DNA from: Micropruina sp.
GTDB taxonomy: Bacteria > Actinomycetota > Actinomycetes > Propionibacteriales > Propionibacteriaceae
Length of the DNA stretch: 59,643 bases
Reading direction: 5' to 3'
NCBI RefSeq assembly: GCF_027492755.1
Contig: NZ_JAPUED010000130.1
Span: forward strand, 1-59,643
Position numbers and translations under genes: made by a program. The notes under the pieces were generated by a model. The model had not been told where the DNA came from and did not search any database. It saw nothing but the letters and a program-made list of their open reading frames with translations. Numbering within the stretch: position 1 is the stretch's first letter; each line of letters opens with the position of its first letter. Of the stretch, positions 2,193-45,770 are shown piece after piece.

Positions 2193-3134
2193 ATGGCCGG
2201 GCAGGAGGCGCTGCCACGGGTGGTCGGCTCGTTCCTCGACCACCTGACCGTCGAGCGGGGTGCCTCTGCGCATACCGTCGCCGGCTACCGGCGCGATTTG
2301 GCCCGCTATGCGGATTTCCTGGCCGAACGCGGGGTGACCGAACTGTCGGCGGTGACCGAGGCCGACGTGACGGCCTTCTCCGCGGCACTGCACACCGGTG
2401 ATGCCGAGCGTCCGGCGCTGGCGCCCAGCAGTGTGGCGCGGGCGTTGAGTGCGGTGAAGTCGCTGCACCGCTTCGCCGTCGAGGACGGTGCGACGCTCGA
2501 CAACCCGGCGACCGGGGTGTCGCCGCCGAAGTCCGGACGCCGGTTGCCGAAGGCGCTCTCGCTCGACCAGGTGCAGGCGCTGCTGGCCGCCCCCGACCTG
2601 GATACGCCGATCGGTCTGCGGGACGCCGCGCTGCTGGAACTGCTGTACGGCACGGGTGCGCGGATCACCGAACTGGTCTCGCTCGACGTGGACGACGTCT
2701 CGCTGCTCACCCATGACCCGGACGCCGCACTGCGGCTGTTCGGCAAGGGCCGCAAGGAGCGCATCGTGCCGGTCGGCTCGTATGCCCGGGCCGCCCTGGA
2801 CGCCTGGCTGGTGCGTGGGCGTCCCGCGATGCTGGAGGGCGCCCGGGGCAGCACCCCGGCGCTGTTCGTGAACACCCGGGGCGCGCGGCTCAGCCGGCAG
2901 TCGGCCTGGGCGATGCTGCGAGAGCAGGCGGAGCGGGCCGGAATCACCGCCGAAATCGGTCCGCACACGATGCGGCACTCGTTCGCCACCCACCTGCTGG
3001 ACGGCGGCGCCGACGTCCGGGTGGTGCAGGAACTACTCGGGCACGCGTCCGTGGCGACGACACAGATCTACACCCTGGTCACCGTCGAGCATCTGCGCGA
3101 AGTGTTCCTGGCCGCGCATCCGCGTGCCCGCTGA
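2193..3134 (+). CDS. xerD: Tyrosine recombinase XerD
   Basis: A 313-aa site-specific recombinase that, with XerC, resolves chromosome dimers at dif. The N-terminal SAM-like core-binding domain is about residues 5-90 ([21 protein letters not shown]), followed by the catalytic domain with Arg in [16 protein letters not shown], Lys in [23 protein letters not shown] (HxxR), GHASVATT and the tyrosine nucleophile in QIYTLV. Length and position right after pyrG-NUDIX match the housekeeping XerD rather than a phage integrase. The frame is open further upstream, but ATG 2193 gives the normal N terminus and sits just after the NUDIX stop. Its 3' end lies 5 nt from the convergent DUF305 gene; no terminator fits between them. 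Confidence 0.93.
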
Positions 3135-3139
3135 CCCAC

Positions 3140-3712
3140 TCAGCCGTTCAGCAGCTTCTTCATCTGATCGATCTCGGCCTGCTGGCTGGTGATGATCGCC
3201 TCGGCGAGCTTCTTCACCTCGGGGTCGGAGCCCTTCGCCTGGACCTCCTTGGCCATCGCGACCGCGCCCTCGTGGTGCTGGATCATGCCGGTCAGGAACA
3301 GCTTCTCGGCCTCCTTGCCCTGGGCGGCTTTGAGGGCGTTCAACTCCTGCTCGCTCAACATGCCGTCCATGCCGGTGTGGCCGTGATGATCGCCGTGGTC
3401 GGAGGCGCCCCAGGCCTTCAGCCAGCCGCGCATCTGGTCGATCTCAGGCTGTTGGGCGTTCTTGATCTGGGTGGCGAGCGTGGTGACCTCGGCTGAGATG
3501 CCCTGCTTGGCCAGCATCGCGTCGCTCATCACCACGGCCTGCTCGTGGTGCGGGATCATCATCTGGGTGAACATCACATCGGCCGCGTTGGCGGCGCTCG
3601 ATGCGCTCGCGGATGTCGACGGAGTAGGGCTGGGGGTGGCTGCGGGGGACTGGCAGCCGGCCAGGGCAAGGCCGGCGGCAAGGGGAAGTGCAATGCGGGC
3701 GAGCTTCTTCAT
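3140..3712 (-). CDS. DUF305 lipoprotein, probably copper-related
   Basis: A 190-aa exported lipoprotein. From ATG 3712 it has MKKLARIALPLAAG, then LALAGC (lipobox), then a Ser/Thr/Pro/Ala linker. The DUF305 domain carries the two typical Met/His motifs MMIPHHEQAVVMSDAML and MIQHHEGAVAMAKE. Family knowledge: DUF305 proteins are periplasmic or surface ferritin-like four-helix proteins often found with copper-resistance genes. A CsoR-like inverted repeat overlaps the promoter 11 nt upstream, which supports a copper role. The frame is open upstream of 3712 but has no signal peptide there, and the extension would run through the promoter. No csoR or copA lies in the window. Confidence 0.88.
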   Translation of the reverse strand: MKKLARIALPLAAGLALAGCQSPAATPSPTPSTSASASSAANAADVMFTQMMIPHHEQAVVMSDAMLAKQGISAEVTTLATQIKNAQQPEIDQMRGWLKAWGASDHGDHHGHTGMDGMLSEQELNALKAAQGKEAEKLFLTGMIQHHEGAVAMAKEVQAKGSDPEVKKLAEAIITSQQAEIDQMKKLLNG

Positions 3713-44429: not shown

Positions 44430-44533
44430 CCACCGTTGGTCGAGCTTGTCGAGACCCGTTTCGGCTCAGAGGTGAGATCTCGACAAGCTCGATCGACGGG
44501 GTCGGAGGAATCTCGACAAGCTCGATCAGCGGT
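44430..44533. repeat. Class A dispersed repeat, extended copy
   Basis: Left arm CACCGTTGGTCGAGCTTGTC followed by GAGACC; right arms ATCTCGACAAGCTCGATCGA and ATCTCGACAAGCTCGATCAG in tandem, each followed by a CGG-type end. It fills the gap between leuB and the Clp_N gene, whose stop codon sits at its right edge. Confidence 0.85.
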
Positions 44534-45486
44534 CACTCCGGTTGCCGGTCGGCGATCTCCATTCCGATCCGGTGCGCGGCGTAGAGCATGCCCAACCCGG
44601 CGAACCTGGCCGACGCCGGGCCGACGATCCGGCCCAGGAAGCCGAAGCTGCGTTGGCCGGCGGTGTGCACCAACTCGGCGCCGCCGGTCGCGGGCACGAT
44701 CTCGAAACGGTCGTAGCGCAGGGGCTGCCCGGCGTGCCGGCCGTCCACCATTTCGTGGATCCAGGTGACAACCTCCGATGCGTCCTCAGTCCGGCGGACG
44801 TGGTGCATCCGCAGGGTGAGTTCCTTGCGGCCGCGGCGGTGGCGGACGGTCTCGCCGTCCGCGCTCACCTCGGATCGGTGCGGGTCATAGGCCCAGACCG
44901 CGAGCAGCGCCGGATCGGCGAGCGCATCCGCGACCACCCGCGGCGGGGCCGACAGGTAGTGCCGGATCCGGTTCGCACTCGACGGCGGCGGCAGCAGGGC
45001 GGGGTCGGCGTCGACTCGCTCGACCGCGGCTGTCTCGGGTGCGGACGTCGCCAGTTCGGTGCGCAACTCGTCGGGATCGACGCCGTCGGCGGCGAGCAGT
45101 CGCCGGACGACTCCCGAAGGCTCCTCGATCAACGCGCCCAAGGCGGCGGCGGTGCCGTCGCGAAGCGGTGCGTGGTTGACCAGTTCGTGGGCGCGGTCGG
45201 TGGCCCGCCAGTCGGCGATGTCGATGTCGCGCGCGGCCCGGGGCGGAGGCAGAACGGACTCGGCGGCGGCGAGGCCGAGCGCGTCCAGGTCGCTGGCCAG
45301 TGATTCGCGGACGCGTCGCCGGGCGGTGCTGAGTGAGACGCCGTGCCGTCCGAGGATGCGGGCCGCCTGACCGCCGACAGCGAGCAGGCCCAGGTAGAGA
45401 TGGTCGATGTCGATCTCGGACACCCGGGTCCGGGCCGCCTCGAGTTGCGCGGCGCCGGCCCATCGACTGGTCAGCAGCATGGTCAT
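44533..45486 (-). CDS. Clp N-domain plus SRPBCC fusion protein
   Basis: A 317-aa protein without TM segments. Residues about 1-145 carry Clp repeat (ClpA/ClpC N-domain) features: AARTRVSEIDIDHLYLGLLAVGGQAARIL, HELVNHAPLRDGTAAALGALIEEPSGVVRRLLAADGVDPDEL. From about 165 a START/SRPBCC-like domain follows (IRHYLSAPPRVVADALADPALLAVWAYDP, RYDRFEIVPATGGAELVHTAG). No AAA+ domain is present, so it is not a chaperone; it may be an adaptor or ligand sensor. Coupled by ATGA overlap to the HTH gene upstream. Such pairing is seen in other actinobacteria; the role is unknown. Confidence 0.82.
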   Translation of the reverse strand: MTMLLTSRWAGAAQLEAARTRVSEIDIDHLYLGLLAVGGQAARILGRHGVSLSTARRRVRESLASDLDALGLAAAESVLPPPRAARDIDIADWRATDRAHELVNHAPLRDGTAAALGALIEEPSGVVRRLLAADGVDPDELRTELATSAPETAAVERVDADPALLPPPSSANRIRHYLSAPPRVVADALADPALLAVWAYDPHRSEVSADGETVRHRRGRKELTLRMHHVRRTEDASEVVTWIHEMVDGRHAGQPLRYDRFEIVPATGGAELVHTAGQRSFGFLGRIVGPASARFAGLGMLYAAHRIGMEIADRQPE

Positions 45487-45725
45487 CGGTTCGTCCTTCC
45501 CCGTAGTTCGGCCGCGACTCTGCGCGCGTACTTCTTGTGCACCGCCTGCCGGGTGACCCCGAGTGCGGCCGCGATCTCGGGCCAGCCGTGGCCCGCCCGC
45601 AGTGCCTCCTCGACCTGGGTCAGCTCGAGCATGTCGGTGACCCGGCGCAGCGACGCCACCGCGCGCAGCCCGGACATCGGGTCACTGGTGTCGGACGCGG
45701 TACGCGCCACCTCAACGGCAATCAT
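45483..45725 (-). CDS. Small helix-turn-helix regulator paired with the Clp_N protein
   Basis: An 80-aa DNA-binding protein. The HTH covers about residues 32-68: MLELTQVEEALRAGHGWPEIAAALGVTRQAVHKKYARRV. No sensor domain, so signals may come through the partner Clp_N-SRPBCC protein encoded 4 nt overlapping downstream. Upstream is a strong promoter (TTGACA/TAAGTT) covered by a long inverted repeat, suggesting tight autorepression. ATG 45725 lies 6 nt after the -10 box, so the mRNA is probably leaderless. Confidence 0.85.
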   Translation of the reverse strand: MIAVEVARTASDTSDPMSGLRAVASLRRVTDMLELTQVEEALRAGHGWPEIAAALGVTRQAVHKKYARRVAAELRGRTNR

Positions 45726-45729
45726 GTGA

Positions 45730-45770
45730 GCAACTTAGGTTGACATCGCCCGATTGTCAACCCAGGTTGC
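45730..45770 (-). promoter_or_regulatory. Promoter covered by a 16-bp inverted repeat (HTH/Clp_N operon)
   Basis: On the minus strand: -35 TTGACA (45760-45755), 17-nt spacer, -10 TAAGTT (45737-45732), then 6 nt to ATG. The arms GCAACTTAGGTTGACA and TGTCAACCCAGGTTGC match in 14 of 16 paired positions with a 9-nt spacer, so the repeat includes both promoter boxes. ilvE reads divergently 47 nt beyond. Confidence 0.72.

Follow-up and report, generated by a model that had tools for sequence, protein, structure and literature searches.

The window analysed here, a 59,643-nucleotide stretch of Micropruina sp. DNA, carries a closely coupled pair of genes on its minus strand. The upstream gene, an entry in the list of open reading frames, encodes an 80-aa helix-turn-helix (HTH) protein (45483-45725), and its last 4 nt are shared with the beginning of a gene for a 317-aa partner (44533-45486) in which a Clp_N region is followed by an SRPBCC/START-like domain, with no AAA+ module. 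HTH and Clp_N therefore lie on two separate ORFs rather than on one polypeptide; the small protein is the putative DNA-reading half of the pair and the partner the putative sensor half. Neither protein reaches any family cut-off in NCBIfam, and a search of a phage collection for a phage origin of the pair returned no match.

The HTH protein gives a weak match to Pfam HTH_23 and is tri-helical in its predicted model (residues 16-43, 48-55, and 59-79), with the predicted recognition helix at approximately residues 59-79 (TRQAVHKKYARR...). Of 198 genomes sampled from the class, 135 contain a match to this HTH. In the PDB, a profile built from standalone HTH proteins, with fused ones left out, matched RelI (3e-7) and, at 1.1e-3, 8ADA, an N-terminal piece of Mycobacterium tuberculosis ClpC2. 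The same profile, run against genomes, recovered seven ClpC2-like proteins at 1e-11 to 1e-15, in which HTH and Clp_N are fused in single chains of 240-245 aa. By both the 8ADA match and the fused proteins (≈1e-11), the HTH is of the same type as the HTH/dimerisation domain at the N terminus of ClpC2. When the HTH model was compared with known folds, it matched only generic HTH structures (Z up to 6.5), and neither RelI nor 8ADA was among the 50 matches listed, so the link to RelI and ClpC2 is one of sequence.

In the partner, Clp_N is matched in two stretches above the Pfam cut-off (E = 3.4e-11), spanning residues ≈13-147; the second repeat is degenerate. A Pfam search of all 317 aa for AAA+ found no match, which leaves a Clp_N double repeat free of AAA+ modules, as in ClpC2. 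The C-terminal domain (residues ≈167-308) matches Polyketide_cyc2 weakly when the window partner is taken alone (E = 0.024, below the Pfam cut-off); six homologous partners of the same layout (L010, L011, L048, L049, L051, and L055) pass that cut-off. An AlphaFold model of the partner predicts nine helices and then elements in the order beta-alpha-alpha-beta(6)-alpha, and its residues 167-308 match START-like structures in the PDB with Z up to 10.5. Because overall confidence in this model is low (it draws on two sequences and has a mean pLDDT of 52), we used it only alongside the sequence evidence from relatives, and the two lines together, the Pfam matches of the relatives and the predicted helix-grip fold, make the assignment to the SRPBCC superfamily secure through those relatives. 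In fold and sequence, the C-terminal domain of the relatives resembles known SRPBCC/START-like domains (Polyketide_cyc2, AHSA1, and the PR-10/PYL folds); it differs from them in being fused behind Clp_N.

Upstream of the HTH gene lies an inverted repeat of two 16-bp arms (45730-45745 and 45755-45770) that are complementary at 14 of 16 positions and separated by 9 nt. Comparison with relatives resolves each arm into a pseudo-palindrome of its own, CAAC-N4-GTTG, so that two operators stand in tandem with centres 27 bp apart. On the minus strand, operator O1 (45755-45770; GCAACCTGGGTTGACA) contains a perfect consensus -35 box, TTGACA (45755-45760). Operator O2 (45730-45745; TGTCAACCTAAGTTGC) stops 4 nt short of the start codon and contains a -10-like hexamer, TAAGTT (45732-45737), that lies 17 nt from the -35 box and agrees with the consensus at three of six positions. 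A consensus promoter scan found nothing at this promoter because the -10 is weak. Only 6 nt separate the -10-like hexamer from the ATG, from which the mRNA of the operon is probably leaderless. The preliminary description of this DNA had proposed an 80-aa HTH regulator coupled to a protein that joins a Clp N-domain to a START-like fold without ATPase modules, under a 16-bp inverted repeat covering both promoter boxes, and this anatomy is borne out.

The genome of the window, 3.74 Mb in size, contains the motif GCAACN4GTTGAC exactly three times, two of them at this operator, and a 41-bp operator pattern has four matches in 57 genomes, all upstream of such an HTH gene, with none for a reversed-pattern control. 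Given this rarity and these hits, the inverted repeat is not a product of chance. The near-uniqueness of the motif also suggests that the regulon is probably this promoter alone, and it is consistent with autoregulation as the sole function of the operator. Across HTH loci, paired operators were found within the stretch searched at 52 of 64, against 0.06 expected from mononucleotide shuffles, the 64 loci being partly related. Six of the 12 loci lacking paired sites encode fused proteins, for which the search had been anchored too far downstream, and a second look at the fused loci located two sites at 7/7. Half-site spacing separates the two forms: N4 in the split systems and N5 at all fused loci.

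The pairing noted in the preliminary description holds across genomes. A Clp_N gene lies immediately downstream of the HTH gene in 53 of 58 non-redundant standalone HTH loci, and, viewed from the other side, 297 genomes sampled from the class yielded nine SRPBCC-type partners of full length, eight of them adjoined by HTH and operator; loci were chosen by best score, and these fractions hold for clear members. The five HTH loci with other neighbours are the weakest HTH matches. Four of these five (L039-L043) still have paired N4 operators. The one SRPBCC-type partner without an adjoining HTH (L116) is encoded at 2581-3525 on the minus strand, downstream, as judged by eye, of a gene for a CPBP-like membrane protease. 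The same gene pair and the same operator architecture recur in uncharacterised actinomycete operons that encode an HTH protein and a "Clp protease N-terminal domain-containing protein." Partners in these other operons are mostly 160-220 aa and lack SRPBCC, whereas the window partner has it. The literature searched, with most subscription papers lying outside it, contained no earlier description of a split Clp_N/HTH pair.

The pair also moves as a unit. In the window and in two relatives of the same genus, it sits between ilvE and leuB; in three other relatives of the genus and one other member of the family, leuB and ilvE are divergent and adjacent at this place, with no such insert. In more distant relatives, the pair lies elsewhere. 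We considered a regulatory link to leuB and ilvE and set it aside because these genes stay adjacent without the pair and distant copies are found at other sites. HTH gene, partner gene, and operator together make up a self-contained, portable cassette. They are found, operator included, on plasmid pSU1 of the gammaproteobacterium Agarilytica rhodophyticola (L123), which suggests transfer between phyla.

The closest characterized system is ClpC2 (Rv2667), a mycobacterial autorepressor with HTH and Clp_N in one chain that senses and binds cyclomarin A (PMC10030653). Its paired operator, CGTCAAC-n5-GTTGACG, overlaps the -35 and -10 elements of an apparently leaderless gene; ClpC2 binds this operator, cyclomarin A disturbs the binding, and occupation of the Clp_N half by cyclomarin lifts repression of its own promoter (PMC10030653). 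The window pair shares with ClpC2 a homologous HTH-containing domain, a Clp_N double repeat without ATPase, and a pair of palindromic operators that cover the -35 and -10 boxes of its own promoter, likewise apparently leaderless. It differs in being two proteins, in its extra SRPBCC domain, and in its half-sites, two copies of which stand in the same place before the start codon but with N4 spacing instead of the GTCAAC-N5-GTTGAC of ClpC2. A second known relative is the RelI antitoxin (Rv2664; PDB 9SDC), which belongs to the same family and is likewise a small HTH protein that stands alone, and the RelI study noted an HTH region common to RelI and ClpC2 (PMC13284704). Unlike RelI, which is partnered by a Rel-type toxin, the window HTH has Clp_N-SRPBCC as its neighbour.

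The residues through which ClpC2 contacts its ligand and its DNA set the window partner further apart. F172 and E181 of the cyclomarin site are absent from the window partner and two genus relatives, the stretch containing R185 and R189 is deleted in the alignment of the same three proteins, and F96, another cyclomarin-contact residue, falls in a column that is unaligned in the window partner. The columns for F172, E181, R185, and R189 are aligned with some doubt because the second Clp_N repeat is degenerate; with that reserve, E181 occurs in 0/10 SRPBCC-tailed partners versus 25/43 untailed ones. Many split partners lacking SRPBCC retain F172, E181, and R185, and the fused protein L082 has R57, Q94, F96, F172, E181, R185, and R189 exactly at the published ClpC2 positions. 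Cyclomarin is thus an unlikely ligand of the window partner, F172 and E181 not being conserved in it. In a tree of the HTH and Clp_N columns (228 columns, a quick search, one long branch), the 10 SRPBCC-tailed partners, drawn from four actinobacterial families, fall into a single clade with SH-aLRT support of 98-99, and the seven fused proteins make up another, supported at 99.

Overall, we favor with reasonable confidence a reading of the pair as a self-contained, autorepressing two-protein sensor, related to mycobacterial ClpC2 but split in two and extended by an SRPBCC tail. By its separate chains, N4 spacing, and lost contact residues it is not a ClpC2, yet it most likely works like one. 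In this scheme, the HTH protein would bind the two adjacent pseudo-palindromic operators over the -35 and -10 boxes, probably as a dimer per site, and would thereby keep expression of both genes low, a role with which the operator layout agrees. Translated from the same transcript, the Clp_N-SRPBCC protein would be the responsive half and would contact the HTH protein, much as the corresponding domains of ClpC2 are linked in a single chain. Repression would be released when a ligand or Clp-type client occupied the Clp_N groove or the SRPBCC pocket, so that more partner is made and the trigger is sensed and possibly sequestered. The data above establish the anatomy, the homologies, the conservation of pair and operator, and the cassette nature; that the HTH binds DNA, that the two proteins touch, which way the switch turns, and what ligand it answers to are inferences. 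Against this reading stand the L116 partner with no HTH beside it, the five weaker HTH loci with no Clp_N, and the missing counterparts of R185 and R189, to which DNA contact in ClpC2 was partly assigned, within its Clp_N half, on the basis of R185A/R189A mutants (PMC10030653); with those positions missing from its alignment, the window partner cannot use them to contact DNA. The preliminary description had suggested a two-part signalling switch in which the partner either delivers the regulator to Clp protease or senses a ligand. The switch itself is well supported by co-conservation, by the ClpC2-like fusions, and by an operator that travels with the pair. Ligand sensing gains support by analogy with cyclomarin on the Clp_N of ClpC2, where repression is lifted (PMC10030653), and delivery to the protease finds no support.

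Other explanations fit part of these data. The induced Clp_N protein could act chiefly as a sponge that soaks up Clp-directed toxic peptides, the HTH merely keeping it off at rest. A sponge against cyclomarin is the published role of ClpC2 (PMC10030653), and the retention of F172, E181, and R185 by many SRPBCC-less split partners agrees with it. We nevertheless think this unlikely for the window pair: its partner and two genus relatives lack F172 and E181, the SRPBCC-type partners have no E181 in an alignment that is uncertain here, and the M. tuberculosis ClpC2 response is triggered only by cyclomarin, not by ecumicin or ilamycin (PMC12913811). Somewhat more improbable is a pair that has the same promoter and no physical interaction, in which HTH autorepression answers to another effector; the five weaker HTH homologs with other neighbours speak for it. 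The tight gene order, the 53/58 co-occurrence, and the existence of ClpC2-like proteins that unite both domains in one chain make it very improbable.

Clp_N is the docking domain of ClpC for adaptors and substrates. As an adaptor or decoy, the partner could accordingly determine how stable the HTH protein is towards ClpC-ClpP, with derepression by proteolysis of the HTH, and ClpC is indeed found in relatives of the same genus. This has a low probability in our estimation, as the partner lacks an AAA+ part, no sequence feature points to degradation, and in ClpC2 the two domains together make up a single autorepressor, not a substrate that is delivered (PMC10030653). In the 85%-complete assembly to which the window belongs, ClpC was not found, the search returning only a ClpB-like protein and the window partner; five genomes of the same genus have ClpC, and its absence here is probably a matter of missing sequence. 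Homology to RelI (3e-7) could also be read as a toxin-antitoxin-like pair in which the HTH neutralises the partner as RelI neutralises RelS. The partner is Clp_N-SRPBCC rather than a Rel-type RNase, and no toxicity is described for ClpC2, which unites these two domains in a single chain; we find this reading scarcely credible.

The reading of the pair as an autorepressing sensor can be carried back to ClpC2 itself, here only tentatively. Two-protein Clp_N/HTH sensors could form a large family in actinomycetes, of which ClpC2 would represent the fused minority. If in that family the small HTH alone reads DNA, the N-terminal domain of ClpC2, rather than mainly its Clp_N half, would do so as well, and in the clade of the window the sensing input would have passed from the Clp_N peptide groove to a newly gained SRPBCC domain. 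The N-terminal crystal fragment of ClpC2 comprises residues 4-72, ending at 72 after proteolysis, and the homologous recognition helix starts at residue 73, a position checked on L082. This does not overturn the R185A/R189A mutants, which could act through a dimer or domain interface. The split, SRPBCC-tailed form places mycobacterial ClpC2, which senses and soaks up a Clp-directed antibiotic, in a wide family of portable sensor cassettes, makes testable which half of ClpC2 reads DNA, and offers a natural experiment in which a Clp_N sensor has gained a second domain of a ligand-binding type.

Two further observations concern the surroundings of these genes. Between the Clp_N-SRPBCC gene and leuB (44432-44533), copies of TCTCGACAAGCTCGAT stand in direct and inverted orientation, an intergenic palindromic repeat that is perhaps a terminator or a repeat element. 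On Streptomyces collinus pSCO1 (L124), the HTH and Clp_N genes are followed by those for an ABC transporter ATPase and permease; the arrangement resembles an inducible efflux operon, and cassettes of this kind may serve efflux in addition to sequestration.
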